Below, piece by piece: positions 20,407-42,800 of a stretch of 64,000 nucleotides of DNA; position 1 is the first letter of the stretch; each line of letters begins with the position of its first letter. Source of the DNA: Capsaspora owczarzaki ATCC 30864 (taxonomy: Eukaryota > Opisthokonta > Filasterea); the NCBI RefSeq assembly GCF_000151315.2, contig NW_011887304.1, forward strand, positions 541,690 to 605,689. Direction: 5' to 3'. The notes under the pieces were generated by a model. It searched no databases and had not been told where the DNA came from. It saw only the letters and a list, made by a program, of their open reading frames with translations. A program made the translations under genes and the position numbers.

Positions 20407-23400
20407 TCACGCAAGAACATCGTCGCGATCAGCTCCGGCAGTCGCATCATCAATGCCAGCAAAGCCGGAAAAGTGCGTTGGTCGATGCACTTCGTGGTAA
20501 AACTCCTTGGGATTGGCCAACTGCAGGTCGTAGCGCATGGATGGCGAGTGGCTGACGCCCATAAAGTTGTAATTCCACGAGCCTTCGGCGGGCACCATGA
20601 AAAAGCCGAGGAAGCGATCGGACAAGAGCATCTGGACGCGCTCAAAGAAGCTGGGCTGGTAGCCGGCGGGGTTGATGCTCGTGTCCTTGTTGTTGCGGCC
20701 CCAGTCAAAGCCGGTGGGAGTGAGCTTGTACGCCGTGAGCGAGCAAGAACCAGGGGTGAAGGAGCAGGTAATCACGATCGTCTTCTCGCCGTCCCAGGCT
20801 TGGTTGTCGGCAAGGATCTTGGCGTGGGTGGTCACGTCTTGCGGCGAGAGGTGTGGCAGCTCGTTGGGCTGGGTGTGAATCCAGCCAAGCGGCTCGTAGT
20901 CCTTCAGGTACTCGTTCTGCGGCAACTGGTGCGGCAGGTGGACGACCTGGTGGGTGCCCCACTGAGGAACCATCACGATGCAGCGCACCTCGAGCACCTT
21001 TGGGTTGTCGGGCGGGGACACGCCATACATGTAGCCGGCAATCTGCGTGCGCAGGTCAGAAATCGTGATAAAGCGCTTGAGCACGTTCTTGGGCAGAATG
21101 TACGTGTAGCCAGACTCGCGAATGTCGTCCGAGTTGACGTAAATGTGGTTGGTGCGCAAGTGCAGGTTGGTGGACGAGATGGCACGCACACGCCACTCGG
21201 TCTTGGTCGAAAAGTTGCGCGACTCGTAATTGCTGGTGGTGGTCACGATAATCTCGTCGCCATGCTTGTTCACCGAGCGCGTGGTGGTCGCGGTCAGCTG
21301 CGACTGCTCCTTGGTCTGCTTCTCGACCTCGGCAATGTCGCGGCGTTGCTGCGACGGGGCGGCAATCTCCATACCGAGAATGATGTCGCGAATCTCGGAC
21401 TGCGTGAGCGAAGCGACATTGACGTTCTGACGACGGCCAAAGTCGGCCAAAATCAAGTCCTTCAGCGCCACTTCAACCTTAATCCACTCTTCGTCGCTCA
21501 GCGTGGGCCACACGTGGTGAGGCTGCGTGATGGTGTTTCGGTTGGGCTTGAGAATGAGCTTGGCGCGGTCAATGTTGACGTGCAGGGCGCGCGCAATCAG
21601 AATGAGGCGACTGAACGCCGTGTAGGACGAGATGGTGCCGAGCCAGTCGTCGTAAATGTTGGCCAAGATGAGCTTTGGCTCGGTTGCCTGCATGATAATG
21701 TCGCCAAACTTTTCCACCTTCATGATGGCTTGGAAGGGCAGTTGCAAATCCGAGCCCTTGAGGACAATGTTCGGGAAGTCGAGCATGTGCACCTCGAGCG
21801 GGTCGAGCATGCCCTTGCGCGTGACAATGATCTGCTTGGGCTGTTCTTCCACGGGCAGCGAGCGAATGAGCGCAGCCACTTCTTCGGCCGTCTTCCACTT
21901 GGCCAGCTGGCCAAGACGCTTCTGGCCCGCCCACACGGACGTGTGAATGACCTTGAGGAAGAGCTGGCCCGTGCGCGGGTTGAAGATGAAGATGGCACCG
22001 TTGATGGGCTTGGTCGTCAAGTTGCCCTCAAAGGTCTTGTGGATGGTGACGCGGTAGACGTTCGTGTCGTCGACAAACCAGATAATCTGGTTGGAGAAGA
22101 GCTCGGCATAGTTTTGCGAGGACAGGTAGGGCTCGGTCGGCTCGGACGAATACAGCTGCAGGGCCTTGCGAATGCGCTCGCGCAAGACGTAGAGCGCAGG
22201 GTTGGCCTTGCTGACCTTGCCGAGGGCTTGCTGCATCAGGGGCTTCATGCCAGGAATCCAAGAGCCGTAGGCAGCATACAGGTTGTAGGCCAGATCGAAC
22301 GCAATCAGCACACCGGTGGGCGACGGGTACAGCGACATGTTGTCGGTCGTGTTTCCGACGATGATTGGGCGCGACGCCTCGACGACGACGCCGCTGTGGT
22401 TGCGCTCCAGCACACGACGGAACATGATCAGGTGCTCTTTCGTCGGCACTCGCACGCACCACACCGTGCCGCTGCGCGTCACTTGCGCGCACTCGGTTGC
22501 GACGGTGAGTTTCGGTAGCGCAGACTTTGGCGTGTCGCTGAAGTGCACCTCCCACAGGTCCGACTTGTACGTGCACTGCACTCCGTGTACGTTGACACCG
22601 CCGAGATCGCCAGCCTGGTTCTTCATCACGCACCGTGCGCTGTAGCCTGCGTGCAGCGCCGCACGCTGGGATCTCGTCGCGGAATCGCGCCGACCCAGTG
22701 GCGATCCAGCCCCCGTCCTGCTGCGACGCCGCTGCCTGTGACTGATTGCCATCAGCGACGCGCAGGCCGGCGATCAGCGCGCGCGCACCCGCAAGCCCCA
22801 CGCGGCGCCAGAACCAGTGCCAGATCCACTTCGCTGAGTCGATGTCCTCGGCATCCGGAGGCTGCGGCTCGTCCGTGGCGCCCTGCTGGCGCGCGAGCGC
22901 GAGGATGGCCTCGGCCGTGGGCGATGCCACCAGTGCCGCCTGTTCCACCGAGGGCAGGTGGCCAGCGCAGTGATGCGTGTGCATGTTCATGCTAGACCGC
23001 GTCGACGCCGGCGTGGGGCCTCGCGCCGGCTTCACCGGGACGGCGTCCGGCACGTAGCGCTGTCCGTCACCGGGGGCGACGTCAGCGACTGCGTCAGCCA
23101 CCGAGCCGATGCCCGATGTCAGCAGGGCGCTGTAACGCGACGCCACGCCCGTGTACGGACGGCGGGGAGCCGGCAGCACAGACGCGCCACGCCGCAGCGC
23201 GCCGATCAGCACATCCACCTCAAACGCGCCGCCGTACTTGTGGCCGTACTGCTGGGCGAAGTACTGCACCCAGTGCGAGGACGTGATGAAATACGTGCGT
23301 TGCGGATTGGCCTGATGCGCGGCGCGACGCTGGTCACGCGCCGCCTGCTGCTCCGCTGGCGACAGTGTGTCATCACTCAGCGTCTGACGCCAGTAGCCGT

Positions 23401-26400
23401 GTGCCCCCTGCGTGGCGGACTCCAGGCGAGGTAGGGGCAGCCGCGCCAGCAGCGCGTCGAGGTACGCCCAGTCCGCCGGCTTGCTCGGACCGAAGGCGAT
23501 GCTGCGGTGGGTCGAGTCCAGCCATCCGTCGCCGAGGAAATAACCGTACAGCTCCAGGAAGGCCAGCTCCTCGTCTGCGGTATGCAAATCCAGCTCGCGC
23601 ATGAACGGCGCGGGTCCGCTGGGCGTGACACCCGCTTCGAACATGCCGGAGAACTGCACCACCGTGCTGCGGTCTGCCGCACCAGCCGCCAGGATGCTGC
23701 CGGCAGTGTGCTTTTCGAACGCAGGAGAGCCCGAGAACACGCGGTTGGCACCCGTTGCACCCAGCCGAGCCCACATGCGGTGGTTGTCGGTCGGGCACAG
23801 GGACACGCCGCTGTCGTCAGCAGCGCGCATCTCGACGTGCGTGTGCTCGCCGGTGTGCACGTACAGCGCCCCGATGTCGATGGAATGGTACTGCAGGGCG
23901 CCGTCCACCCAGCTAGCGACGTCGAGCGTCCCGTGGGACGCGAGGTGAGCTTGCACGCCAGCGAGATCCATGAAGCCGTGCGCGGTCAGCACCTCGTGGT
24001 CCTCGGCAGGGAAGCAGTAGTCGAGGAACTTGGCGCGCGCGTAGCGCTCAGCGTCGTGCGAGTCATAGTCGCCCCAGCGCAGCTGGACGTCAACCCAGTA
24101 CTTTTGGGTCGGGTGGGCATCGATGGCATCGCGCTGGTCGGCAAGGAGCGACGGCTTGGACACCTTCCAGTTGTAGGCCGCAAAGAGAAGCACGTCGGCG
24201 CAGGAAGAGTTCATCTTGTACGACTTGCGCGGGTGGACGGTCTCCTTTTGCACCGTCTCAATCTGCAGCTGGTCGGTCACCTGGTCAAAGACCTGGCACA
24301 AATCCATCACGATCGACTCGTGAATCTTTTGCCACAAGTGGGCGCGGAAGATTTGCACGTAGGAAATCTTGAGCGTGGGCAGCTTGCCGTGCAACATGAT
24401 GCCCGTCAGATCGAGCTGCACCTGGAAACCAACGTAGACGTTGGCGCGGTTGATGGTGGGCGACCACCACAGCGTAAAGCGACGGTTGGGAATCTGGCTC
24501 AAACCAGAGCGCTGCGCGTTGGTCAGCTTCTTGTACGCCATGGCCTCTTCGAAGCCAGATGCCTTCTCCCAGAACAGACCCTCCCAGGTGACGTGGGCCG
24601 TGCCCTTGAAGAGCGTGTGCTCGAGAATGCCCTCCACACCACCGAGCGCCTGGATGACGTCTGCGCGGTAGTTGTTGAGCGCCCAGAGCTTGCCGTCGTG
24701 ACGAGCGTTGGTCCAGTGGAAGGGGTTGTACTTGGCGACCTGGTACTTTTTGAACTCGGTGCGAACGCGCCAGCCCTTGTCGTAGGCAAGCGTGTGGCGG
24801 TCTTTGGTGAAGAGCGAATTGATGCGCGGTAGGCCTCGGTCCCACGAGTCCTCCAAGTCGTCCAGCGTGATGCGGCGGTTTTGAGCGAGGGCCTCCTGGC
24901 GCTTGAGCGTGTACTCGGCCCAGACGCGGACAGAGTCGGCAAACTCGCTCTCCCACGGCTGAATGTAGCGATACAGGTTGGGAATGAGCTGGTCCTCCTC
25001 GTGCGTCATGCCAGAGCGGAAGTGGGTGATGCCGCCCATGTCCGTTTGCTTTGACCAGCGCTTGTCCGACTCTGGGATGAGCACGTGGCCCATCGAGAGG
25101 AAGCCAAGGCCACCGAGCTCCTTGGGCGTGTTGTGCGCAACGAGAAAGTCGGCGAGGCAGAAGAGCGGCGACTCGCCAGGCGCGACCGCAAAGCCGACGT
25201 ACTCGCCGTCGGCCGCGGCAGGCACAATCTCAAAGCCGCGCACGCGCTGCTCCACGGCGTGCGTCGGTCCCGTCGAGCGCTTGCTCGGCAGCACGACGGG
25301 GAGGAGGTGTGTGTCGCCGGAAATGAGCGTCTGGTGGCGCCAGAAGGTTGGCGCAGGCGCATCAGCGGTGCCATCCTGCACGAGCTCCTTGCGCGACAAC
25401 GTGAAAAGGCCGAGCGAGCGCGAAATGTCGTGGAAGAGGCGGACGATGGACGCGTGTCCTGCGCGCTCCGACTGCGAGAAGGCAATGTGCTTGGCAGCGC
25501 CGCTGGCCGGGTCGAAGGCCAGGTGCCCGGCCGATTCAATGAGGCCAGCGAGCAGGTGCGCGCGCACGTCGCTCGACTCGCCCATGAGCAGCTCTGCGGC
25601 GCTGTCGCTCACGTGCTTGGCGTCGAGGACACCGAGGGCGGTAAGGACGCGAAGGAAGGTGTTTGACGCTGTGGGCGACGTGATGGTGACGCGGCCGCGC
25701 TCTTCCTGCGGGTCTTTGGTGAGCATGACATCGAGTCCGCACGCGCTCGCGACAGCCTTGAGGCGCGGGACAATGTACGGCTCCTCTGACGTGCCGACAG
25801 AGATGCGCGCGACACGCACCTCCCCAGCTGCTCCGAGCCACAGGCCGACGAGCCAGGCCATCATCGCTGGCGTGACGGAGGGCAACGTGTTGTCACCGCC
25901 AGCGACCTCGGCGACGATGGTGGCGAGGGAGCGGCGTCCGGGCCGCTGCTCTGGCCACTCCGCCACAGCCGCGCCGTAGCTCATGTTGAGCGGCACGAAG
26001 GGCACGTCCGGCATTGCGCAGTAGCGGCGGTAGACGTCGAGCGAGACGCACCACTGCGTCGCGCTCAGCGTTGCGACCAGGGCCAGCGCGCGCTCCTTGG
26101 CCGCGGCGGCTGTCGGATAGACCTCGCAGCCAGAGGTTTCCAGCCACTGCGGGCCATAGAAAAAGGTGCGCGAGATCGACGACTTGTCGTAGTCGTTCGG
26201 GTGCATCTTCAGCCCTGGCGTGACGCGAATGCGCCCGTGCGCGACGTCGTGACTCAGCGTGACCATGCCAGAGCTCGTGCCAAGCGCCGCTTCAATCTGC
26301 GCGCGGCAGGTACTGGCGTACGCCTCGGCCGCTGCCATGGCGCGCGAATACCCGTCCGCGTAGCGCGCAAAGTTTGCAACATTCCACTGGACGCGCTTCT

Positions 26401-29400
26401 CGACCTCGTACGGCCGCGGCGCGCCGAGGGCAGCGTCGACCTTGAGCACCGTGTAGCGCGCCGCGTAGGAGCCGCGGGCGCCCGCTTCGTCGTCCGCGAC
26501 GCGCAGTCCTGCGCCGGGCGCGAGCGAGATGACGAGGATGTGGTTGCCGTTGCACTCAAACCCGTCGTCGTACAGAATGTCGCCGCACTTGTTCTCTGCC
26601 GGGCGCACGCGATACATGGCGGCACGGCCAGAGTGGACGTGCGCCGCCGTGCGTGCCGTGCCGTCGTGACCGAGCACGCGGTCGCCGACACGGATGGCGC
26701 CCATGGCGCGGACTGAGCCGTCCGCCATGCGCACGAGCGTGTCTGGCGCCGTGCAGTAAAAGACGACCGGCGGGAAACGGCTGGGCATCTTGGAGTTGAG
26801 GCCAATCTTGATGCGGGTTTGCATCTTGTTCTCGGCCTTGACGAGCAGATCGAGCAGCTCGGGCGTGTTGACGACCGCCTCGCGGTAGTACGTCATCAGA
26901 CCAATGAGCAGCGTGTTCCAGCGCGAGGCCACCTTCACGAACGGCGCAGAGCCACTCGACAAGAGCACGGCACGCGCGCGGTTGTTGAAATGCGTGATGC
27001 CTTCCTCCGACACGCGCAGGTACGCCTGGGCGGTGCGCTCTTTGGTCACCTCGTGCTGCAAGTTCCAGACGCCATCGCCGTGCGCCAGCTCCTCGCCGGT
27101 CGAGCGGATCTTGGGCTTGATGCGCACCTCAAAGCCGCACATGTCAAAGAGCACGTTCGGGTTGTCCTTCGAGTACACGGACACGAACGAGTCCTCCCAC
27201 TCGATGGTGGTGATGGAGCGCGGCAGGCGGTTTTTCATGTCCCAGAACACGGCGCGGCCCAGGTGCACGTCCTGCTTGAACAGACGCATGCGCGAGTCGC
27301 GCGGCCAGCACTTTTTGTTGTTGTAGCCCACCACGTTGGCACCCGTCGGATCCGGGTTGTTGGTCAGGTAGCGCTGAATCAGCTCGCGCGCCTCGTCGGC
27401 AGTAAACCGCAGGAACATGTGGATGCGGTCGACGTTGCGCGAGTACAGGCGAATCGGATGGCGTGACTCGACCTCGGGCGACGGGAATTGCAAAAACTCG
27501 TTGGGCATGTTGGGCGGGCCAGCCAGCTCCGTGGCGCGCTTCAAGCCCAGCAACAAGATGTCAATGACCAAGCCATAGTACTGCGCAATGAAGGCCGAGA
27601 ACTGGAGACCGCGAATCAGACCGTACGAGTTGGTGTGGTTCATGTCCTTAAAGTTGATCACAATGTTGTTCTTGGCCGTCATGTAGTCGGCAATGTTGTG
27701 GTCGACGATGAGGCGCAGCAGGCGATTGAGCACGGTCAAGTCAATCTTTTCAAACAGCTTTTGCAGCGTCGTTTGCATCATGACGTTGCACTCGCCGTCG
27801 GCCGTAATCCAGACATCCTGGAGGTTGTTGATGCCCTGGCACCACTTGTACACGAGCAGCGGCGGAACTTCGGCGTCAGAGGGCTTGATCCACGCAGGGA
27901 ACAGGCCACGCTTGCTGGCCTCGTAGTGCAGGTAGGCGTCGAGGTAGGCATCGGTGATCTTCTCGAGGGGCTCGATGGCATAGACGGGCAAGAGATGCGA
28001 GTACATGTCCATGAAGTCAATGCCGGCCTCCTTGAACGAGCGCTGGGTGAGCAAGTGGCGCTTGATGCGCGCAAGCACAACGTTCGGGTTGTCGAACGCA
28101 TCTTCAATGAGACCGAGCTCCTCACGTTGCTGCTGGTTGAGGCGGGCCTTGACAGAGTACGCCTCGCGCAGCTGTTCCAGCGCAAGAATGAGCAGCTTGA
28201 CGTCGTGCTTGTAGTTGAGCGGCGGGAAGGGGATGGGCGAGAAGCGGCGCGACTCGAGCCAGTGGACGGTCGTCGTGTAAATGGCCACGGCCTCCTCGGC
28301 AGACACGTACGGGCCGTCCTTGAGGTAGTTTTGCTGGCGCTCCTGCTCGGCCTTGAGATAGAGACGAATGAGGCGACCCAGGTTCTTTTTGATGGCGGCC
28401 TTGTCCACGGTGGCACCGCGACGAATACGCTCGCGATTGAAGTGGGCGGCGTTCGTCCACCAGTCGGCCTTCAGCTTGACATAGCGCAAAATCATGTTCT
28501 CGATCGGCACGGGCATGCCAGGCACCTTCCAGGCAATGTTGGCCTTCCAGCAGTTGTGCACAACAAGCCAGTTGTCGAGAAGGAACAAGGGCGAGCCGTC
28601 AAGCTCAAAGCCGACGTACGGGCCGCTCTCGCTGACGCGTGAGACAGTGAACTTGACAAAACGCCGCTCCCGCGCCTCGGCGCATGTGTGCTCGGCCATC
28701 ATCGGCTTTTGCTTGCACGGCAGCAGGTGGATACCGTCGCCGGACAGGCGACAGGTAAGCCGGCGGAGCGCCTGCGACGATGCAGTGAAGGAGGCAGTCT
28801 TCCGCGCATACACGTTGCAGAGCAACCCCAGACTGCGCGCAACATGCTGGATGAGCCGGAGAATGTCGCCATGATGTGCAGAGCGGGCTGCTCCAACTGC
28901 TTGCACCGCGCTGTAAGCGCATGCAGAGCCGCATGAGTTGCAAGCAACCAGACTGCCCTCGCCATCGAGGAAGCCAGCCAGCACGGCACGGCGCACTGAC
29001 ACGCTTTGCGTCAGAACATTGCGTACAAAGCTGGCGGAAATGTCCTTGACAGGCTTGCGCAAGTAGCCAAGACCACGGAACGCAGCCAGCAGGGGGTTTT
29101 GCTTCTCAGAGCCAAGAGCGCGGGTGAGGGAGACTTCGTACATGTCAGGTTGGGACACGCGATGCGAGACAAGGCCGAACTGCGGGGCGACCTCGTCCAA
29201 GTAGGCGAGAAGCGATGACTCTGCATGGCCAACAAAGAAGGAAGCGCGCTCAGCGCTGCCGTCGGCAAGATGAAGGCCCAGCAGATAGCCGAGGGTTTCA
29301 GGAGTTGGCCGCGGCTCGTTGCTGCTGATGGCAGGGACGACCTGCTCGATAACCTGGCTCAGGTCGACGGAGGCCGGCACCGGCCACTCGATACAGCCAC

Positions 29401-32400
29401 TCCGAATCATGCGCATGTGGCCAGCTTGAGTTGGGTGCGCAGCAGCAAACCGGACGAACGCAGCTGTGCCGACAGTCCAGAGCACGGGTTGAGCAGCACG
29501 GCACTCGTTGGCAAACGTTGTGGCGGCATCACGAGCGGCTGTCTCGGTTGCAAACCGACGGTCATTCTCGGCTGCGACAAAGGTGGCGGAATACGAGAAC
29601 GTGCTGGAAACCTGCTGCATGCTCGTCTCAAGACCTTTGACAGGACCAGAGTACTTGCGAAGCGCTGCATGACGCACCGTGAACGTGCGTGAGGCAGCGT
29701 CGTGATGGACATGCACCGTGTCAATGTGAGGACAAGCGAGGACAAGGTCGTGACGTGAGTTGCACGTAAAGCCCGACTCGGAGGGCTGCCATTCAGCGTC
29801 CTTTCGCTGGGCTTTGCTCTCCGGCGGAGTCACGATGCTGATCTTGTACATGGCATCCCTGCCGGCCATAGTGCGCTTGACCGGCAGGCTCCGGCCATCG
29901 GCGCCAAGCACGCGGTCGTTTTGGGCAATGGCGTCGGCGCGCTTGACCGAACCGTCAGCCATACGCACAGGCGTCTCGGGGGAGAAGCAGCGCCACGCCT
30001 CACTCAAGTGCTGCAGAATCAAGCGAGCCTTGTTTTGACGGATGCCTTCGGGCATCATGTCGAGGATATCGTGCATGACGGAAGCACGCAGCTCGAGATC
30101 AAAGTGGGACTCGACACGTTGCTTGGTCACTGTCAGAGCGACGCCCTTGTGCAGGCGACCCTCGAACTGACGCGCGAGCAAGTTGCCCAGCCAGCGCTCA
30201 AGCAGCGGTACCACGCCGCGCATAAAGAAGAGCCAGACACGCCACGAAGGCGCCCAGAAGCCCACGCCTGGACCCTTGCCGACCGTGCCAGTGTTGAAGC
30301 GGTAGTAAATGACGTGTTTGAGATCCTTGCATTGGCGAACCTGGCGCATGAGCTTGTACTTGTAACGGTACATGCCTGTGAGCTGGCCAATGTGGTTGAA
30401 AATGTAGTTGAGACCGTCGGCGAGCTGGTACGCGTCCGCGTTGCCAAGGCGGTACTGCACGTGCGAGTCAACCACGAGCTTGGTCAGACGCAGAATCTCA
30501 CGACACAGGTGGTACGAGTTGCCCATGCGGGACTTTTTGCGCTCCTTGGTGGTGAGCGTCTTGACGGGCTTGAGGTTGAAGTTGTAGTCGAGGTGCAAGT
30601 AGTGCAGGCCCTTGCGGTGAATGAGCAAGTTGAGCATGTTCCAGCCCTGGCGACACACCTGCAGACCGGCTTCGACCCAGTCGAGCTCTGTCTGTTGGAA
30701 GAACTTTGTGTTTTTGAACGAGCGGAAGAGGTAGCGCTTGTTCATGGCCTTGGGTGCGCGGTGGCGCAAGGCGTTCAGGACGTAGTTTTTGAGCAGCTTT
30801 TGGTAGGACACGCGGACCTTCTGGGGCTGGCCAGGCGGGCAGTGCTCCAGGTACCACTTCTGGACGAGCGGCACGTCCTCGGCGCGGCGCGTGTAGCCCG
30901 AGCGCAGGTTGAATGGTCGCGGCGCCCAAAGCAAGGCAATGCCGTCCGCCGTGTTGTCAGTGTAGACGGGGCACTCGCCGAGCAGCGGTGCAACTGATTC
31001 AGGCAGGACAAACGACTCGAGCGTCGGCAGGGCCGTGCTGTAGCTTCCACCCGTCGCTTGGTCCTCGGCGTCCTCCATGTTGGTCGGATCAAACTCGTCG
31101 AGCTGGCTCATGAGGCGCAGCAAGTCGACCGAAGTGCCGTTGCTCGTCGCTGAAGAGCCCTTCTGCTGCACGCTCGCATCCGAAAACTTGGCAGTCGTGG
31201 CCGACGATGCCGTGGTGGCGGCGTGGCGGTGCGTGATGGGGTTGATGAGCGGGTCAAAGTAAAAGGCGGGCAGATCGGGGTCTTCCGTCTTGATAAACTG
31301 CACCAGCGGCGAGTGGTACTGGGCGAGCTCGACGGCGCGGACGCGGTTGTTGTACAAGAAGGGGAAGGCGATGCGGTATTCCGTGCGGATGGGCTGACGC
31401 ACGATAATCTTGTTGACGTCGTTAAACTCGTTCCAGTCCTCGTCGACGTGCTCCTCGTCCCGGAAGAGCGGCTCAAAGCGCGGGCCACCAGGAATGGCCA
31501 TGTTGAGGGCCTTTCCGGTGAAGAACGACTTGAGGTCAAACAGGTAAAAGTAGTTGGGGTCGACGAGATCGGACAAGAGCTGCGACGCGAGACGGAAGAG
31601 GGTCGAGCGGATGGGCAGGTCGAGCGTCCAGGTCTTGTAGCTCGCGCCGTTGACGCGCTTGAGGTCGTCGCTGAGCGGCTTGTGGTCGTAAAACCAGTCG
31701 ACCACGGGCGCGTCTTCGGATGGATCCAAGTCCATCTGAATGGCCTCGAGCGGCTCGACATCGACGAGGTTGTCGCCATAATCAAGCGGCATTTCCTCGT
31801 CGTCAAAGGGCGGGAGACGCAGGCGCTTAAAGTGGCGGCGATCGCGCTTCTCGCGGCGCATCATAATCCACATGGTTCCCCACTGCGCAATGTACACTGG
31901 CTCAATGACACGCGGGATCTCGTTGACGAACGTGATGGCGCCCGTAATGTGGTAGATGGTCTGGACCTCGCGGACCTGCTCCCACGGCATTGGCATGTTT
32001 TCGAGCAGCTTGAGCACGGCGTGCGGCACGTACTTGAGTGCGCCCAGGTAGACGCGCTTGTCGTGTCTGTACTTGCGACTCGTCATGTCGCCGTGGTCGC
32101 GCATAATCTTGCGCAGGTGCTCTGCAGGCATGTTCTGCTTTTGCGTCTCTGCAGCAAAGCCAAACTTGCGCTTGTCCGAGTATCGCTTGCTCTGCAGCTG
32201 CTGCCACTTGCGCGCTGAGGTAGGAGGGGCGAAGGGGGGGGTTTCCAAAACGAGCACACAGCAGGTTAGTATTCAGAAAGCGAGGGTTAGGGGGTCGAGG
32301 GGTCGAGGGGTCGGTCGAGGGGTTGAGAGGGTTGAAACGAGAGATCGCAGGATCTCGCTGCTTTTTGATCCAAGCGCACGCGTTCCCCTTTCCCCTTCTC

Positions 32401-32755
32401 CCCCCTCCCTCCTTCGCTCGCTCGCTCCGTCTCGTGCTCGTGCTCAATATCAAAGTGTGAGTGCTGAGGACACATCGAGTGTTGAGGAACGAGGCACCAA
32501 ACTCAAAAACTCAAAGCCAGAGAGACAAAAATAAAAAGAAAAAAAAAAAAAAGGAAAAAAATCGACCGCGCAACGATCGCAACGGAAACGCCATACAACA
32601 AAGCGAAAGGACGACGACGAGGACCAATCTCAGTGTGATTGAAGATGGGGATGAGGATGAGGATGAGGATGAGGATGATGAGGGGTGGTGAGGGCGGTAC
32701 CTTTGTCTTCGAGCTTGTCTGCGGACAGCCCCTGAGGAGCAGCAGCAAAGGACAT
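20407..32755 (-). CDS. PRPF8: PRP8, core U5 snRNP splicing factor, interrupted by three inteins
   Basis: Exon 1 is 32755-32701 ([18 protein letters not shown]); a 486-bp intron follows, then exon 2 from 32214 to 20407. The extein is near-identical to human PRP8 throughout: [38 protein letters not shown], the reverse-transcriptase-like and endonuclease-like core, the RNase H-like domain starting [13 protein letters not shown], and the C-terminal Jab1/MPN domain ([19 protein letters not shown]). PRP8 forms the scaffold of the spliceosome's catalytic centre. Three in-frame inserts (28553-29989, 25130-26755 and 22351-24016) fall at Arg^CysTrpLys, Tyr^ThrProLys and Tyr^ThrThrAsp. The third contains a +1 base at 22668-22670, so the frame of the last ~785 codons differs from the frame upstream. 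It shares a divergent promoter with the ankyrin gene. Confidence 0.95.
22351..24016 (-). mobile_element. PRP8 intein 3 (1,666 bp, ~555 residues, ends in Gly-Asn) with apparent frameshift
   Basis: Inserted between extein KFLDY and TTDNMSLY, directly before the RNase H-like domain. It begins [15 protein letters not shown] (Cys1), with block B as PTDNHRMW (His79). Two LAGLIDADG motifs keep their acids: YGYFLGDGW near residue 163 and [10 protein letters not shown] near 422. Block F is [13 protein letters not shown]; the end is RPIIVGN, so the usual penultimate His is Gly, followed by Thr+1. The overall build differs from inteins 1 and 2. The span is 555 codons plus one base. The reading frame shifts at a CCC run (22668-22670) just after FRDEI, and continues in the other frame as [13 protein letters not shown]. 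Either a sequencing or assembly error, or an inactivated or recoded copy. Confidence 0.9.
25130..26755 (-). mobile_element. PRP8 intein 2 (542 residues, VMA-type, endonuclease acids lost)
   Basis: Inserted between extein PPVVFY and TPKELGGLG. It starts [15 protein letters not shown] and ends FLVAHN, followed by Thr+1; block B is [13 protein letters not shown] (His72). So the splicing residues Cys1, His72, His541 and Asn542 are all present. The homing-endonuclease domain is still full size, but the two LAGLIDADG motifs read [10 protein letters not shown] and LAGLIESAG. Against yeast VMA1 intein (LLGLWIGDG, LAGLIDSDG), both catalytic Asp positions are Ala (residues 309 and 409). Splicing probably works, but DNA cleavage probably does not. 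Its best relative in view is intein 1 of the same gene. Confidence 0.92.
28553..29989 (-). mobile_element. PRP8 intein 1 (479 residues, VMA-type, endonuclease motifs intact)
   Basis: Inserted between extein LSEAWR and CWKANIAW. It starts [15 protein letters not shown] and ends [10 protein letters not shown], followed by Cys+1. Block B is [12 protein letters not shown] (His80), near-identical in layout to the yeast VMA1 intein block (FTCNATHELVVR). LAGLIDADG motifs are LLGLHLADG (Asp243) and LAGFLDGEG (Glu344); an Asp/Glu pair is compatible with activity, as known for some intein endonucleases. Between them, [20 protein letters not shown] also echoes VMA1. All splicing and cleavage residues look functional, so this copy may still be mobile. 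Confidence 0.93.
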
Positions 32756-33201: not shown

Positions 33202-36200
33202 ATGTCCAATCTGAGCAACGCTGCCAGAGCGCTGCAGCAGCCGCGGATTGTCTCGCCAGTGAGCGCGCGGCGGCAGCCCCTGGACGGCGTGCTTCTGATG
33301 AGTGGCATTGATCCTACGAGTGCTATTCATCCGAGTAGCAGCAGCAGCAGTGCGACGACTAGCAGTAGCAATGGTGGGACTGCATCGCCACCAGGTGGAG
33401 CTGACAATGCTGCTGCTGCCGCTGCTCTCCCGTCGTCGTCGTCGTCGTCGTCGTCGGTGCCTGGCGCAATCTCTGTCGTGATGGCAGGGACGCACGTCTT
33501 TGAAGCCGCGGCGCAGTCGTCCGCCGCCCTGCACGCGGTGCTCGAGGCGCTGTGGAACCGGCATGGCCTGGGCATTGACGCGCCGGACGCCAAGTCTGGG
33601 CTGACTGCCGTCCACCACGCCGCCAAGCACAACGCGCTGGTTGCGTTGCTGCGGCTGTTTGACTTTAACGCGCGTGGTGGCGAGATTGCCGACGCCGTGG
33701 GCATGACGCCGCTGCACTGGGCCTGCTGGCACCGCTGCGATCGCATTGCGCTGGCTTTGATTCAGCGATCTCCAAAGATGCTCGTTGCGCAAGACCACCT
33801 CGGGAACACGCCGCTGCACTTTGCAACGCGGGCTCAAGCATCGCTGCTCGGAAGCATGCTCGTCAACCAGCCCGCCCTGTGCGTGCCCAATGCAAATCCG
33901 TCCGCAAGGCAACTCGTCAATATCGCTGACAACGAAGGCGCAACCCCGCTCCACTGGGCCGTCGGGCACGGGCTGATTGACTTGGTATTAACGCTGCTGC
34001 TTGCGGGTGCGGATGTCAACGCTCGGTCCATTTCGAACGGCCGGACGACGCCGCTCGGCTGGGCAATCATGGCAGACAAGCTCGAAGTGGCCACCTTGCT
34101 CCTGCAGCGCGGCGCCGACGTGAACTTTCGCGATAACACTGGCAAGACACCACTCCACTGGGCTGCGTCCACATGCAACAGTGGCATGGCCGAGCTCTTG
34201 CTCGCCTTCAGTGCCGATGCATCCGCGCTCGACTCCACCGGTGCCTCGCCTCGCGAGTATGCTGGAGCGCTTCCAGCGCTGCAACAGCGTCTCACCGAGG
34301 CAGAGGCAGGTGCCTCCATCCCCGCGATCGCACTCCAGAGCAGAGCCATGGCTGTTTCGGCAATTGCGGCGTACCGCGATTTCGTGGACAATTTCGTTGC
34401 TCCTCCGCCTGCAGCTCAGCCTGTTGCTCACCCAATGCAGCAGCAGCAGCAACAGCCGCAACAGCAGCAGCAGCCGCAACCGCAGCAGCCGCAACAGCCA
34501 CAGCGACCAACACCAGCGGAACCAACCAGCGCCACCAAGTTACCATCCTGGGGTTCGCTGCCCCCAATGACTGGATTCCTCGCTCCGGCAATCACGCCAA
34601 CACAAGCCGCAGTGTCCAGTGCTTCGGTCGCCGTGGAGCCGATCAACCAGGAACAGAATGGCATTATTGCAGACCAACCCATTTCGAGCAAACCTGCCGC
34701 CACTGCATCCACCGCGCCCGCTGCCACCCCCTCCTCTACCCCTTCTACCACCTCCACCTCCACCATGAGCAAATCTCAGCGAAAGAAGGCTGCCAAAGCG
34801 CAAGCCGCAATGGCCGCTGCGATGTCGGACGCCGTTCTCGAGCCGGCTTCTCCTGGTGGCGCGCTCGCCAGCGCCGCCGATGCGCAGGTGGACGAAGTCG
34901 AAGAAGGCAGTGCTGATCCGCAGACTGAAAGTCCCGAGGGAGAGGCCCCAGAGGCAGCAGAGGTCGACCAGTCCAGTCGAGGACTGGCTCTGCTTGAAGC
35001 GGCACGAGCCGGCAATGCGCAGCTCGTGGCCGAATTGGCCGAGGAAGACGGCGCATTTGACATTATCATCAAGGGCGAGCTCCATCACACGCCGCTCATG
35101 CAACTCGTTGTTGACGGCGACTCGAAGGCAGCCAGCCTGCTGATGGCGGCGGGTGCGAGCATGAGCGGAATCGACTCGCGAGGTCGCAATCTCCTCCACC
35201 TCGCTGCTCTGAATGGCAATCTCTTGACGATTGAAGCGCTGGTGCACTTTGACATCACAGATCACTTGCAGGTCGATTCGGTCGACCAATTCGGCAAAAC
35301 GCCGCTTGCGCTTGCTGCTGGCCGTGACCATATTGCCATTGTCACCCAGCTGCTGCAGCTGGGGGCCAACCCAGCAGTGTGCGATGAGAACGGCCGCAAC
35401 GTTCTGCACAACGCCGTGGCCTCCGTCGAAAGCTTCAGGGCGATTCTGGCACACGCTCGTGCCAACAAAACGTTGAATACTGACAAGACGCCCGCGTCTG
35501 GATCTGCAACACCAGCCCCGGCCGCTTCTGCCGCAGCGCCAAAGTCCAAGAACAGCAAGAAAAAGGCAGCCAAGAAAAAGGCAGCGTCCAGCACGCCTCA
35601 GCAGCCGCCATCGGCATCCACGCTTTACGTTAACGCCGTGGATGACAAGGGTCAGACTGCCCTGATTCTTGCTGCGCAGGGTGGCTTTACGTTCGCGGTG
35701 AAAGAGTTGCTGGCGGTTGGTGCCGACCCCGCCATTCGCGAAACCGCGTCCAATCGCACCGCGCTGATGGCGGCTGCCAGCTCCAGCAAGCTCGAGGCGG
35801 TCGCAGCTCTGATTCCAGTCACGCCAAACCTCCACGCCATCGACGCGAACGGGTTTACGGCGCTTCACTACGTCGCCAGGTGGTCGATTGAGCGCATGCC
35901 TCGCGCGCGTGTCGTTGAGATTGTGGTTGCACTGACCAACCCACCCTTCTCCGCCGACCCTTCCGTGTGCCCAGCCACCCCGCTGCATGTGGCGCTGGAC
36001 GCATCCAGAACCGATATGGCCATTCTTCTCGCCGAGCACGGCGCCGACATCCACAACCGTGCCGGACGCAACGTCTCCCCGCTCGAGTCTGTGCCCGACA
36101 AGGACAAGGCCCTCCGCAAAAGTCTGGCGGATGCGTTCAACAGCTGGCGTCTCGCCCAAGAGAAGGAAGCCGCTGCCGCTGCGAAAGTTGCTGCCGCCGC

Positions 36201-36579
36201 CGAAAAGGCCCAGGCCGCCGCAAAAGCTGCTGAGGCGGCCGCAAAGGCTGCGGCGGCGGCTGCCAAGGCTGCCAAGGCCACGAAAGAGAACGTGGCAACC
36301 AAGCCTGACCACAACAGCGTCAAGCCAACTTCAGCTGCGACGCCTGCTCCCGCCAAGACCCCGACACCCCCACCGCCAGCTCCTGCACCCGTTCCGGACC
36401 AAAAAGCGCTTGAAGGCAATCTTCGCGAGCTGCTCTCGGTGCTCGAAGCCTCCAAGTCTCAATACGACCAAGCAGTCCGTTCGGATGCCCAGTTGGTCGC
36501 TGCAGCCAAGACGGCGATTGCCGAAGCTCAAGCCGACTTTGAGTCCTGGAAGACCAAGGTGAATCGGCTCCGGCGATAA
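33202..36579 (+). CDS. Ankyrin-repeat protein, single exon, two repeat blocks
   Basis: 1,125 residues from ATG 33202 without introns. Block 1 (about residues 130-355) has at least six repeats with clear signatures: GMTPLHWACWH, GNTPLHFATRA, GATPLHWAVGHGLIDLV and GKTPLHWAAST. A Gln/Pro-rich linker (about 413-440) and Ser/Thr/Ala-rich sequence follow. Block 2 (about 590-960) has weaker repeats: GRNLLHLAALNGN, GKTPLALAAGRDHIAIV, GQTALILAAQGGF and TPLHVALDASRTD. It is interrupted by a Lys/Ala-rich insert near 755-795. The C-terminus has an Ala/Lys-rich helix (about 985-1035), a Pro-rich spacer and a final coiled-coil-like segment. Ankyrin repeats bind proteins; there is no enzyme domain, signal peptide or membrane segment. 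I cannot name an ortholog. Confidence 0.85.
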   Translation: MSNLSNAARALQQPRIVSPVSARRQPLDGVLLMSGIDPTSAIHPSSSSSSATTSSSNGGTASPPGGADNAAAAAALPSSSSSSSSVPGAISVVMAGTHVFEAAAQSSAALHAVLEALWNRHGLGIDAPDAKSGLTAVHHAAKHNALVALLRLFDFNARGGEIADAVGMTPLHWACWHRCDRIALALIQRSPKMLVAQDHLGNTPLHFATRAQASLLGSMLVNQPALCVPNANPSARQLVNIADNEGATPLHWAVGHGLIDLVLTLLLAGADVNARSISNGRTTPLGWAIMADKLEVATLLLQRGADVNFRDNTGKTPLHWAASTCNSGMAELLLAFSADASALDSTGASPREYAGALPALQQRLTEAEAGASIPAIALQSRAMAVSAIAAYRDFVDNFVAPPPAAQPVAHPMQQQQQQPQQQQQPQPQQPQQPQRPTPAEPTSATKLPSWGSLPPMTGFLAPAITPTQAAVSSASVAVEPINQEQNGIIADQPISSKPAATASTAPAATPSSTPSTTSTSTMSKSQRKKAAKAQAAMAAAMSDAVLEPASPGGALASAADAQVDEVEEGSADPQTESPEGEAPEAAEVDQSSRGLALLEAARAGNAQLVAELAEEDGAFDIIIKGELHHTPLMQLVVDGDSKAASLLMAAGASMSGIDSRGRNLLHLAALNGNLLTIEALVHFDITDHLQVDSVDQFGKTPLALAAGRDHIAIVTQLLQLGANPAVCDENGRNVLHNAVASVESFRAILAHARANKTLNTDKTPASGSATPAPAASAAAPKSKNSKKKAAKKKAASSTPQQPPSASTLYVNAVDDKGQTALILAAQGGFTFAVKELLAVGADPAIRETASNRTALMAAASSSKLEAVAALIPVTPNLHAIDANGFTALHYVARWSIERMPRARVVEIVVALTNPPFSADPSVCPATPLHVALDASRTDMAILLAEHGADIHNRAGRNVSPLESVPDKDKALRKSLADAFNSWRLAQEKEAAAAAKVAAAAEKAQAAAKAAEAAAKAAAAAAKAAKATKENVATKPDHNSVKPTSAATPAPAKTPTPPPPAPAPVPDQKALEGNLRELLSVLEASKSQYDQAVRSDAQLVAAAKTAIAEAQADFESWKTKVNRLRR

Positions 36580-36821: not shown

Positions 36822-39800
36822 ATGGCTGCACCAGAGGAAGAAGACTTTTCAAAGCTCTCCTTGGAGGACCGCTTGTCGCACAAGGTACATTGGCAATGAA
36901 AAATCAACTGGTTTGAGTTTTTGGCGCCAAATCCCAAACAGTTTGTTTCAAAATGGAAGCGGCGGCGTTTCTTTGCACTTGTGAAGGCTGTTTGCGCTGT
37001 CGTTGCCTGCCATGTTGAAATGTTGAAGCTTGGCGAAACTGCTTTGCTTTTTGTTGAGTGCAAGCATGTCCGTTTTGTGGCGGCACTCTGACGGAGCATC
37101 AGAGCGAAGATGGGGGGGAGTATGGAAAAGGCTGATGCAAGCTTGGCTTTGGACTCGGACTCGACTTCGAGGGCCCCGTCAGAGTGGTGCTTCAGAAGTG
37201 TTTGATATCTTTATCGCTGTGGCAATCGGGACATTCGGAGGGGGGGGGAGTGGAAGGGACGGTTGAGCGAGAGCGCAATGGGGAAATGGCTCAGTAGTGA
37301 GAACGACGCTTGGCTGTGCCCCCCGAGCTCCCTCCCCACAGTGTCTGTGATGCATGACTCACGATGATGGAATGGCTTGCGTTTGCTGTTTTCAGAGCTG
37401 GAAGTGCCGACTGCAGGCGTACGAGGAGACAACCAAGCTCATCTCGCAGATGGACGACCCTGCGTCAGACAAGCTCGCTCGGCTGCTGCCAGCCATCCGC
37501 AAGATGCCGCTGGACGCCAATGCTGTGGCGCAAGAGAAGGCCATGGACACGGTGTATGCCTTTGCCGAGTTTGCCGCGTGCGCGCCTCAGGCGACACAGG
37601 AGGTCGTCCAGGGCATTGCGAAAAAGTGCCTCAATGCGCGCGAGAAGACCAAGCAACGCGCCATCGAGTGCTGCCTCATGCTGATTGAGGTCGACAAGAG
37701 CGCAGATGCCGTCGTCACAGAGCTGCTGCCGGCACTCGCGGACAAGCTGCCAAAGACGGTGGCGATTGCCGCGTCCGTTCTCGCTCGTGCGCTGCGCGAG
37801 TTTGGACCCAAAGTCGTGCCATTCAAGCCTCTTATGCGTGAAGCTGCCAAGCTGTTTGATCATGGTGATGGTTCCGTGCGAGCGGAGGTGAGTGCATTTT
37901 GTTGCACTCAGTGATTGTTAAAGTCGAGTTTATTGTGCTCCCACATCATTTTTGGTTTGCTCACCCCGGCCTGAACGCTATTGTCCCATCGCTCATCTCT
38001 TCGCTATTAGGCGAAAGCGCTGGTCATTGAACTCTACCGGTACCTGGGCCCGATGGTAATCAAGCCCGTCATGGAATCGCTCAAACCCGTCACGGTGAAA
38101 GAGTTGGAGGCCGTCTTTGAGGACATGCCGAAAACACCAGCTGTGCCTGAGCGGCTTTTGCGGGCGGAACAGGCCAAGCGCCAAGCGGCAGCTCCGACGT
38201 TGGCTGCTGGAGACGGCTCGGACGGAGCAGACTCGAGCAGCAGCAGCAGCGCCGAGCCTGCCCCGCTGGACCCTTACGACCTCATGGACCCCGTTAACGT
38301 GCTCGAGAAGGTGCCACCCAACTTTTTCAACGACATGGGCGAGAAGAAGTGGCAGCTCCGCAAGGAAGCGTTGGAGGCCTTACATCAGGTCGCATCGTCG
38401 CCCAAACTTGCTGTCGCTGATTACAACGAGATTGTCCGCACGCTCAAGACTGCCATCGGTGACATTAACGTGCTCGTCGTGGCGCTGGCGGCGACATGCA
38501 TTGCAGACCTTGCGACTGGACTCCGTTCTAATTTTGCGCCGTACGCGCCAATGCTCGTTGCCGAGCTGCTCAACAAGTTCAAGGAAAAGAAGGCAACGGT
38601 CGTGACGAGCGTGCGCGCCGCTCTCGACGCCCTCTATCCGAGCATGTCCATCCCCGACCTCCAAGAAGACATTGCGGCCGCAGTGGATAACAAAAACCCC
38701 TCTGTCCGCAGCGAAACGCTGCTCTGGGTGGCCCGTTTCGCGACCGTCACGAATGCCAATGCAGTGCCGAAAGCTGCAATCCGTCCGTTTATTGCAACAC
38801 TATTGAAGGTAGGGGAGTGTCGGGGTTTGTATAAAGGGTGTGTGTGGTTTGGATGTTTGTTGTTGGTTTGTTTGTTTTGGGGGGTGGTGTCGCGCTTTTG
38901 TTTGACTCTCATTATGAATTTTGTGACTTCCCATGCGCAGGGTGTTGATGATAGTCAAAACGAAGTGCGTGAGGCCGCCATGGAAGCAGTGGGCACCTTG
39001 CTCAAACTGTTTGGAGAGCGCGCCTTGGGTCCCTTGCTCGAGCCGGTTGACTCGATCAAGCGCAACAAGATCAATGAGTTCTGCCAGAAGGCCGAGGTCA
39101 AAGGAGGCGCCCCGGGATCCGCCCCCAAGCCTGCAGTGTCCGCTGCATCCGCGCCACCAGCAGCGTCGACTTCTTCGGCAGCCGCAGCCGCAGCCGCAGC
39201 TCCAAAGGCACGCTCGGCACCCGCAAGTGCCAGTGCGCCGCGATCATCCGCCACTGCTGCCAGCACATCGGCTGCTGCCAAGCCTGCCGCGGCCAAATCA
39301 ACGACTTCTGCGGCTGCTTCGTCGGCTTCTACGGCCGCCCCTGGCAAGCGAGCCCCTGCAGCAGCTGCAGCGCCAGCAGGAGCAAAGAAATCTGCTGCCG
39401 GGGGTGCTGCTGCTAGCGCGTCAAAGGATGACCTGACGCTGGAAAACGCTCTCAGTCCCGAGCAAGTGGAAGAGATGGCCACAACGCTGCTACCAGAGGC
39501 CATTCGAACGCAGCTGGTCAGTGCGAACTGGAAGGAGCGGTTGGAGGCTGCTACCAATCTTGAGCAGCTCGTCCAGACGATGGCTCCTGCGGACATTCAG
39601 GCAGAAGTTGTCACACGGTTTGTCGACAAGAAGCCCGGTCTCAAGGACGTCAACACGTTTGTCCTTGCGAAAAAGTTTGATGTGCTGGCGGTGTGTGCGC
39701 AGCGTGCTGCCTCCTTCACCCGGCGAACCGTTACGTTCGGCATGGAAGCACTGGTGGAGAAGCTGTCCGACGTGAAATGCCGCGCCAGCGCTGCAAACTG

Positions 39801-42800
39801 TCTGACCGCGTATGCCGAGCGCACCTCCTTGAATCTTGTGAGCCAGCAACTGGCCGGTGTCGCCATTGCACACAAAAACCCCAAAGTCTCGGCGGAAGCT
39901 CTGCTGTGGCTCTCCACCAGCATCAACGAGTTTGGCATTCAGCAAGTCACGGTAAAATCCATGGTCGAGCTGGTCAAAAAGAGTCTCGCCAACGCCAACC
40001 AGGCCGTGCGTGCCTCCGCTGTCCAGCTGCTCGCGACCATGCGCGTTTGGTTGGGCCCGGACTTGCGTGCGTCGTTTGAGGAGGAAAAGGGGGCGCTGCT
40101 CACGACCATTGATGCCGAGTTTGCCAAGGTGGCAGATCAGCGTCCTCCAGCTCCCACTCGCGGGCCGCGCGCCAAAAAGGTTGCTGCCCCAAGTGCATTT
40201 GGCGAAGAAGCCGAGGGAGGCTCTGGCGCTGCGGACGACGGCGCCGAGGACGGCGGTGTCGAGGATTTGCTGCCCCGAAACGACATTTCTGGGCAAATCA
40301 CGGCCGCCTTGCTGACCAATCTCGGCGATGCGAACTGGAAGGTGCGCGGCGAAGCCCTCGAGCAAATTACGCAAATCCTGCAGCAAGCGCAACGACGAAT
40401 CACTCCCGACATTGGCAGCCTCCCCACTGGATTGAAGGCTAGGCTGTCCGATGCCAACAAGAATCTCGTCACCATTACGTTGAATATGCTGGGCGTCATT
40501 GCAACCGCCATGGGCCCCGAGATTGAACGACACATGCGCATTCTCATGCCTTCCATGCTCAGCACCCTGTCGGATGCCAAACCGCAGCTGCGACAGGCCG
40601 CCATCACCGCAATCGATGCGTGGGAGCAGCTGATTGGTCTGGATCCGTTCATTACGGGCCAGTACATTTCCTCTGCGCTTGCAGGAGACGCCCCGCTGCT
40701 GCGCAAGGACTTGCTCAGTTGGCTCGAGCAAAAGCTGACTGTGCTCAACGAGAATGTTGCGAATCGAGTCAAGCCCAAAAAGCGTTCCGCTCATTCACCG
40801 AAGGCTGTCGCGAAAGATTTTGAAGACCTTGCTCCTGCAATCTTCTCGTGCCTCGAAGACCGTTCGCAGGACGTGCGCAAGGCGGCGCAGGCAGCTCTCG
40901 GCCAACTGATGGTGCTTCTTGGTTATGATTCTCTCGTTCGCGCCACTGGAGGACTCAAGCCTGCCAACAAGACCAGTGTCATGCAGCTCCTGACCAAGCT
41001 CAAGAGTGAGGTGAAGCTACCTACTCCTGCCGCTGCTGTTGTGGCCGAGCCCGCTGCTTCTTCTTCTGCCTCTGCTTCTTCTTCTTCTTCATCAACTTTG
41101 TCTGCTAGCGCTCCCGCAGCGAGCTCTCCGGCCAAACGAGGTGCAGCAGCAGCACCTGCGGCGGCAGCCAGCGAGGCTCCGCCGGCTGCGCTCAAAAAGA
41201 GCAGTGCCTCCACTGCTGGCTCTTCCTCCGCAGCTGCTGCCTCGAGCGGCGCTGCGACTGCACTGGCTGCTGGCAGTGGTCCAGGCGTGCCTGCGTCTCT
41301 TGCAGCTGCCGCGGACGAGAACGCACCGCCGCTCCTGCTCAGCAGCGAGAAGGACGCTCGTCTCGAGAAGGATCGAAAGGCGCGATGGACATTTGAGAGC
41401 CCTCGCCCAGAGTTTGTTGAGCTCCTCAAGGAGCAGTTGCAGCCGATTGTGTCCAAGGCAATCTTCACGCAGCTCCTCAGCCAAGACGCCAAGCATCATA
41501 TGGTTGCTCTCAATGTGATTTGCGACTGCATCCGAGCTCCTCCTCCGCGCCCTGACGTTGCCGAAGTCACACACAGCCTGTACGAGAAGGAAGCCATCAA
41601 CGCTGCAGACGTTCTGTTCAAGTACGCCAGTATTCGTTTCTTTGACAACAACACGACTACCTTCCTCAAGCTTCTCGAGCTCATCCAGTTGGTCATTGCC
41701 AACATGGACGCAGCCTCGGTGATGATGACTGATTACGAAGCGGGCGTATTGTTGCCGTTCTTGGTGTTCAAGGTGAGCATTCGAACTTGTGTCATCGATT
41801 TGAGTGGCGGGATTGTTGGTTTTTGTTGTCCCCAGGTTTGATTAACTTTTCGCTCTGAACGCATCTTCCATAGATTGCCGATCCGAAAGATTCCGTGCGC
41901 AAGGAGATTCGTGGCATCTTCCGCCAGATCTGTAACGTCTTCCCGCCATCCAAGCTGTTTGCCAACTTGATGGAAGGCGCCAAGTCTAAGAGCTCGATTG
42001 TGCGCCGTGAATGTCTCGAGGAGATTTGCCAGCTCATTCAGCGAAACGGAGTGACTGTCTGCCATCCATCGCACACCAAGGTCCTGCCCATGCTGGCTGG
42101 CCACATTGCCGACCGTGACAGCAATGTTCGACTTGCAGCTCTGAATTGCATTGTTGAAGCGCACTTGGCGCTGGGTGATGGTATTTGGAAGCTGCTAGGC
42201 GACATTTCGGCCAAAGACAAGGCCATGCTTGAGGAGCGCATCAAGCGTTCCGGATCGGCCTCGGGTGCTGCTCGCCCTGCCGCCGCTGCAGCCACTGGTC
42301 GCACTGCCGCAGCAGCTGCAGCTGGTGTGAGCAGTAGTGGATCGCCGTCCAAGTTGCGTGCTCCAGGCCATTTGGCTGCTCAAACGGGCGCTGCTGGCAC
42401 CAAGTCTCCAAGCAAGATTCCCACTCTTGCTGGTGGGGCGTCGGTCGCCGCAAAGCAACCGTCTCTCTCTTCTTCTTCCACCGCAGCTGCTGCTTCTGTT
42501 GCAGCCATTCCATCGAGCTCTCCTGCGAAAAAGCGGGAATTTTCTCTCGACTTGGATAAGCTTGGTTTGGCCAACGGAGTGCCTGAGGCCTTGAAAAAGA
42601 TGCCAGTCCTGGCCCCGACAGCCGATGCTGCTCGCGATGCCCTGTCGGCCCCAGTTCCGACTTTGCCGACGCGCTCACGCCCACTCAGCTCCGCGGTGCC
42701 CGCACCAACAGCCCGCTCAGCCTCGACTACTGCCGGTTCAACATTGCTTGCTTCGCGGCTGGCGCGTCCTCCCATGGCAAGTTCCATTCGCGCGCCTGCC

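Follow-up and report, generated by a model that had tools for sequence, protein, structure and literature searches.

The gene for the splicing factor PRP8 of Capsaspora owczarzaki ATCC 30864 was located on the minus strand of a 64,000-nucleotide stretch of contig NW_011887304.1 (the window, in which all positions below are counted), and the best reading of its sequence is that it carries three inteins, none of them at the common fungal site. Capsaspora is a filasterean and a model for animal origins, and PRP8 is an essential protein; three protein-splicing reactions would be needed in this organism before any spliceosome works. Very probably the gene encodes a three-intein precursor in which inteins 1 and 2 belong to site families shared with other phyla, intein 3 is divergent, and a frame break inside intein 3 is an assembly error; this is the best overall explanation. 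A first-pass annotation of this DNA had proposed three separate inteins in one PRP8 gene from Cys starts, Asn ends and exact breaks in the PRP8 match, with insert lengths of 479, 542 and about 555 residues. All of this was borne out, save that the third block is not one open frame and breaks by one base at about 22670; the junctions are VVHN/C, VAHN/T and IVGN/T (slashes mark junctions or insertion points). The frame break, the decay of the intein 2 endonuclease, the allelic families and a fourth intein, in RPB2, are additions to that annotation. The parts of the gene in order of transcription are as follows.

32701-32755 (-): PRP8 exon 1, ATG at 32755, N-terminus as in the NCBI record P0003
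32215-32700 (-): spliceosomal intron at the 5' end of PRP8, GT...AG, 486 bases
29990-32214 (-): extein 1, exon 2 (from 32214) to EAWR
28553-29989 (-): putative intein 1, 479 amino acids, R/CFSPETP...VVHN/C, between EAWR and CWKAN; +1 residue equals human C719
26756-28552 (-): extein 2, 599 amino acids
25130-26755 (-): putative intein 2, 542 amino acids, Y/CTAPDT...VAHN/T, between VVFY and TPKEL; +1 residue equals human T1318
24017-25129 (-): extein 3, 371 amino acids, holding an intact A/SGFEE at about 24559
22351-24016 (-): putative intein 3, about 555 amino acids, Y/CFPAEDH...IIVGN/T, between FLDY and TTDN; +1 residue equals human T1688
22665-22675 (-), at about 22670: one-base frame break inside intein 3
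20407-22350 (-): extein 4, 647 amino acids, with domain IV, JAB/MPN and PROCT; stop at 20407-20409

The four extein pieces joined make 2377 residues, and 1864 of the 2319 residues aligned with bird PRP8 are identical (80%), in line with the close extein match claimed in the first pass. Human PRP8 matched both flanks of inserts 1 and 2 and the gene up to insert 3; the human numbers of the +1 residues were taken from the residue ranges in a search of solved structures. Relative to the Pfam domains, insert 1 marks the end of a PROCN stretch, insert 2 that of a stretch of the U5-snRNA-binding domain, and insert 3 falls between the U6-snRNA-interacting domain and domain IV. The translated gene showed 100% identity with the NCBI protein 'pre-mRNA splicing factor prp8 [Capsaspora owczarzaki ATCC 30864]' (P0003, 3413 amino acids; protein records are cited here by P numbers). 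The spliceosomal intron mentioned earlier is present with GT-AG ends, and lies outside the span that had been described. The site before SGFEE, which we equate with site a, where most fungal PRP8 inteins lie, holds no insertion and is uninterrupted, as had also been said. On the plus strand, an open frame at 20473-22518 runs antisense to the PRP8 C-terminus and probably arises by chance, given the high GC content of the coding sequence.

Inteins 1 and 2 are exact in-frame insertions in a conserved protein, they can be removed without loss of a residue, and their terminal residues are C...HN/C and C...HN/T. Both matched the Pfam family Hom_end_hint (PF05203, cut-off 32.1 bits), intein 1 with 71.6 bits (E 1.3e-19) and intein 2 with 56.7 bits (E 4.6e-15). 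They also matched PI-SceI, the yeast VMA1 intein (PDB 1dfa and relatives), which has a Hint splicing domain and a LAGLIDADG endonuclease but sits in another host gene and at another site. With the whole gene as query the E value was 1.9e-20, the match being best in the second half of intein 1; a query of intein 2 alone gave 1.1e-07. As for intein 3, its terminal residues and the following nucleophile are C...GN/T, and its relatives sit at exact sites in unrelated conserved genes.

Inserts at 16 PRP8 positions (numbered as in the bird protein) were collected from 208 database proteins, and a quick tree was made of the 82 with Cys as first and Asn as last residue, a rule by which chance rows were dropped (for example P0074, P0137, P0206 and rows of P0129, P0131 and P0132). 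In this tree the PRP8 inteins cluster by site. All 14 inteins of site 718 fall in one clade, with a value of 99 in the Shimodaira-Hasegawa-like approximate likelihood ratio test (SH-aLRT), and so do 19 of the 20 common-family inteins of site 1317 (SH-aLRT 96), P0201 being placed elsewhere; P0124 has a 21st insert at site 1317, which belongs to the divergent family of intein 3. The two clades are sisters (support 92). Capsaspora inteins 1 and 2 fall within the site-718 and site-1317 clades, which makes both allelic with inteins from other phyla; they share insertion point and clade with those of Coemansia, Batrachochytrium (718), Auxenochlorella (718) and other eukaryotes. Intein 1 (EAWR/C) and intein 2 (VFY/T) are members of two site-specific families that also occur in fungi and green algae, in an Acanthamoeba-like row and in other eukaryotes.

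Two other accounts of the inserts were weighed against these data. That the three blocks are not inteins, but either spliceosomal introns or in-frame extensions that PRP8 retains, has in our view a practically negligible chance, considering that they start with Cys, end with Asn, are followed by Cys or Thr, and hold the block B motif (N/T)xxH and LAGLIDADG motifs, that insert 1 has an open frame throughout its 1437 bases and insert 2 throughout its 1626, and that inserts are also found at the first two sites in other phyla. It is also most unlikely that inteins 1 and 2 are recent duplicates inside this gene and not separate acquisitions. Their identity was 28% across 366 aligned columns, rising to 44% in the first 85, and the sister position of their site families would agree with a duplication as well; but each of them groups with the inteins of its own site from other phyla at SH-aLRT 96-99, so any duplication would predate their acquisition by Capsaspora, and with inteins allelic across phyla a recent one within the gene is not expected. 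A recent copying of intein 1 into intein 2 was rejected on the basis of these site clades.

The host history was followed with an extein tree of 47 rows, in which P0125 and P0128 were left out, having too little extein. Capsaspora grouped with animals and certain EukProt rows (support 100/98), and the EukProt rows beside it are taken, by tree position only, as choanoflagellates and other holozoans. In the quick tree the Capsaspora site-1317 intein grouped with those of P0005 and P0012 (99), whose exteins lie outside the Capsaspora-animal group, and an approximately unbiased (AU) test rejected a union of the Capsaspora site-1317 intein with 11 Coemansia-type inteins (p 0.0045). This conflict between the intein tree and the host tree favours transfer between lineages, and points to such a transfer of the VFY/T intein, not to descent from an opisthokont ancestor. 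Some circumstances speak the other way: the tree rows are search returns and thus an uneven sample, the group used in the AU test was picked after viewing a tree, and the site-718 tree, with Capsaspora near Coemansia and Auxenochlorella, fits several histories and does not demand transfer. Viral contigs gave no relatives of intein 1 or of the larger piece of intein 3 in single-protein queries, which detect close relatives only; intein 2 was not tried.

Intein 3 is best explained, from its sequence and that of its relatives, as a member of a separate and very divergent intein family in unrelated genes. The relatives were obtained by searches with the intein 3 region and with its nearest relative in the tree. 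In PRP8 such inserts occupy positions 617 and 1812, and in P0124 also 1317 and probably 1685; elsewhere they were found in DNA polymerase delta (P0123), dynein heavy chain (P0131, P0132, P0216), 5-oxoprolinase (P0126, P0211-P0214), an EF-hand protein (P0215) and RPB2 (P0217-P0219). In a listing of flanks, where RPB2 was matched at C-terminal ends only and P0123 contributed two starts and three ends, all starts listed are Cys and all ends listed are GN (GQ in RPB2) before T, S or C. The motifs CFPxxDHxxLTxxGF, PTxNHRM, GxVWCVxVP...RRV and ASRPxxVGN are conserved in at least 80% of 25 family members. The identity of intein 3 to its relatives is about 27-46% in the main N-terminal matches, and in a tree of 22 rows intein 3 pairs with an oxoprolinase insert (87/87, not among the starred nodes); when it is aligned with whole host proteins, its last third is misplaced. 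Intein 3 shares the block motifs and the GN/T end of the CFPxxDH...SRPxxVGN/T inserts in PRP8 (617, 1812), DNA polymerase delta, dynein and 5-oxoprolinase, but its frame is broken in the assembly and its site is its own: among the 208 database proteins, some of which are not PRP8 or lack the site, a Cys-starting insert after FLDY was found in Capsaspora only.

Several results weigh against counting this insert among the inteins. No intein model of Pfam or NCBIfam matched the intein 3 pieces, the smaller of which had one sub-threshold match to an unrelated Pfam family, and no PDB chain, PI-SceI included, matched the larger piece. Comparison by hhalign of the intein 3 family with the other PRP8 inteins gave a probability of 2.7%, which is weak; the value at the LAGLIDADG motif was 14.5% (P 0.0019, also weak), and those for the N-terminal and C-terminal halves were 1.9% and 0.4%. 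A Pfam search at E up to 1 found no intein or endonuclease domain in four whole members of the family (P0126, P0123, P0214, P0218). We might speculate that intein 3 represents a eukaryotic intein class largely unseen by current profile libraries, with block motifs of its own, that has moved between unrelated genes (several sites of PRP8, DNA polymerase delta, RPB2, dynein heavy chain, 5-oxoprolinase) and here sits at a previously uncatalogued PRP8 site, FLDY/TTDN; this is a tentative proposal, with the balance somewhat against it. The precomputed Pfam lists of P0217 and P0219 hold LAGLIDADG_3, or Hint plus Intein_splicing, either in this insert or in another, and this counts against an invisible class. 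If the proposal is true, earlier surveys of eukaryotic inteins undercounted them. PRP8 inteins appear to be more divergent than domain libraries reveal.

Insert 3 has 1666 bases, which is 555 codons plus one base, and its two halves lie in different frames that meet at about 22670. In the public protein model P0003 the last 213 residues are out of frame and the 647 conserved residues of the C-terminal extein are missing, hence the public Capsaspora PRP8 is wrong at its end. BLAST placed the end of the upstream piece of intein 3 and the start of the downstream piece on adjacent residues of four inserts (P0018 twice, P0124, P0127), and the P0126 insert also fits abutting pieces; this leaves one base at issue and no room for an intron. 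In the genome searched (27.46 Mb, 29 contigs), each of the two pieces has a single match, and so does the C-terminal extein, in which 535 of 647 residues (83%) are identical to bird PRP8.

The frame break is likely an error of the public assembly, because a real break would cost the 647 C-terminal residues of an essential, single-copy and highly similar protein. It could be real, which would go against the explanation preferred here; the break might then be bypassed by ribosomal or RNA-level frameshifting, or intein 3 might be a natural split intein, with the upstream frame and the frame from the ATG at 22752 trans-spliced. The same break stands in the public record and in the window, the downstream frame runs open from ATG 22752 to the end of the C-terminus, and the break is near the end of the endonuclease part, the region where known split inteins break. 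But the public record and the window are probably one assembly, so the shared break is not independent evidence; the break concerns one base, nothing is lacking or in excess compared with the relatives, and no second copy of either half was found in the genome. We consider a real break improbable. Even less credible is an ordinary intron, or part of one, at this position: a mechanical scan gave 49 GT-AG stretches of 3n+1 length (20-399 bases) that keep the frame open, but the removal of 20 or more bases as an intron would take away residues that align, whereas the flanking residues abut exactly on the inserts of the relatives. An intron at the break was rejected on this ground.

The last acid of each LAGLIDADG motif is catalytic, and the motifs in the three inserts are as follows.

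29258-29284 (-): intein 1, first motif LLGLHLADG, acid kept
28955-28981 (-): intein 1, second motif LAGFLDGEG, acid kept
25823-25852 (-): intein 2, degenerate first motif of 10 residues
25526-25552 (-): intein 2, degenerate second motif LAGLIESAG
23780-23794 (-): intein 3, block B PTDNH
23525-23551 (-): intein 3, first motif LYGYFLGDG, found by eye, acid kept
22748-22774 (-): intein 3, second motif IAGLRVADG, found by eye, acid kept

The intein 2 motifs were compared in an alignment with seven relatives at site 1317. The first motif of intein 2 holds an extra Ala and the acids of both motifs are lost, so its endonuclease is predicted to be dead. This state is not unique to intein 2: of the seven relatives, the four P0005, P0013, P0015 and P0044 have an acid in both motifs, P0008 and P0022 in one motif, and P0012, like Capsaspora, in neither. 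In intein 3 an acid ends both motifs, and the frame is broken downstream of them.

We infer by homology that Capsaspora PRP8 would be made as one precursor with three non-allelic inteins carrying homing-endonuclease domains, and that the splicing of each would be autocatalytic. In each intein an acyl shift at Cys1 would be followed by transfer to Cys719, Thr1318 or Thr1688 and by cyclisation of Asn; self-excision after translation would then ligate the four extein pieces into a normal PRP8 of 2377 residues. If they are intact, inteins 1 and 3 could still be capable of homing. Intein 2 may be at a decayed stage of the homing cycle, in which the splicing residues are kept and both LAGLIDADG acids are lost; it could be considered a passenger, which would persist because only an exact loss is tolerated at the conserved site. 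Capsaspora may offer a non-fungal host for testing the control of RNA splicing by PRP8 inteins.

Three inteins in one gene is not a record, and the idea that it might be was rejected. Strict counts in 19 selected PRP8 proteins, all of them lower bounds, gave at least seven inteins in P0022, at least six in P0125 (incomplete), at least five in P0014 (Coemansia biformis, partial) and in P0124 (partial), and at least four in P0008 and in seven Coemansia records; the same strict count gives Capsaspora two, because its third intein is frame-broken. At least 16 PRP8 positions are occupied among the proteins fetched, Capsaspora's third included, and position 1545 or so was left uncounted because the bird reference P0032 differs from the others nearby. 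This compares with seven PRP8 intein sites, a-g, catalogued in 2019 (PMC6805012). The Capsaspora inteins have in common with the catalogued ones the Cys1, the (N/T)xxH block B, the terminal Asn, the Cys, Ser or Thr at +1 and the host gene, and differ in that three are found in one gene and none at site a. For Auxenochlorella protothecoides, another paper names one intein in nuclear DNA (PMC5784728), and the Auxenochlorella record in our set, a hybrid, contained two PRP8 inteins, one of them of the divergent family. No report of PRP8 inteins in Capsaspora was found in the open-access literature.

Outside PRP8, profile searches of the genome with PF14890, PF05203, PF14528 and PF01079, which miss inteins like intein 3, revealed one further intein. 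It is located in RPB2 on contig 17 (G000:C17:695410-696438), has 518 amino acids with the ends GEMERD/CLHGD...AVHN/CMIAHG, and is flanked by Rpb2 domains 6 and 7. Its Intein_splicing score was 31.3 bits, below the cut-off of 35.8, and Pfam Intein_splicing gave no match over the whole genome, PRP8 inteins included.

Further long open frames were observed on the plus strand of the window at 33202-36579 and 38053-41841.

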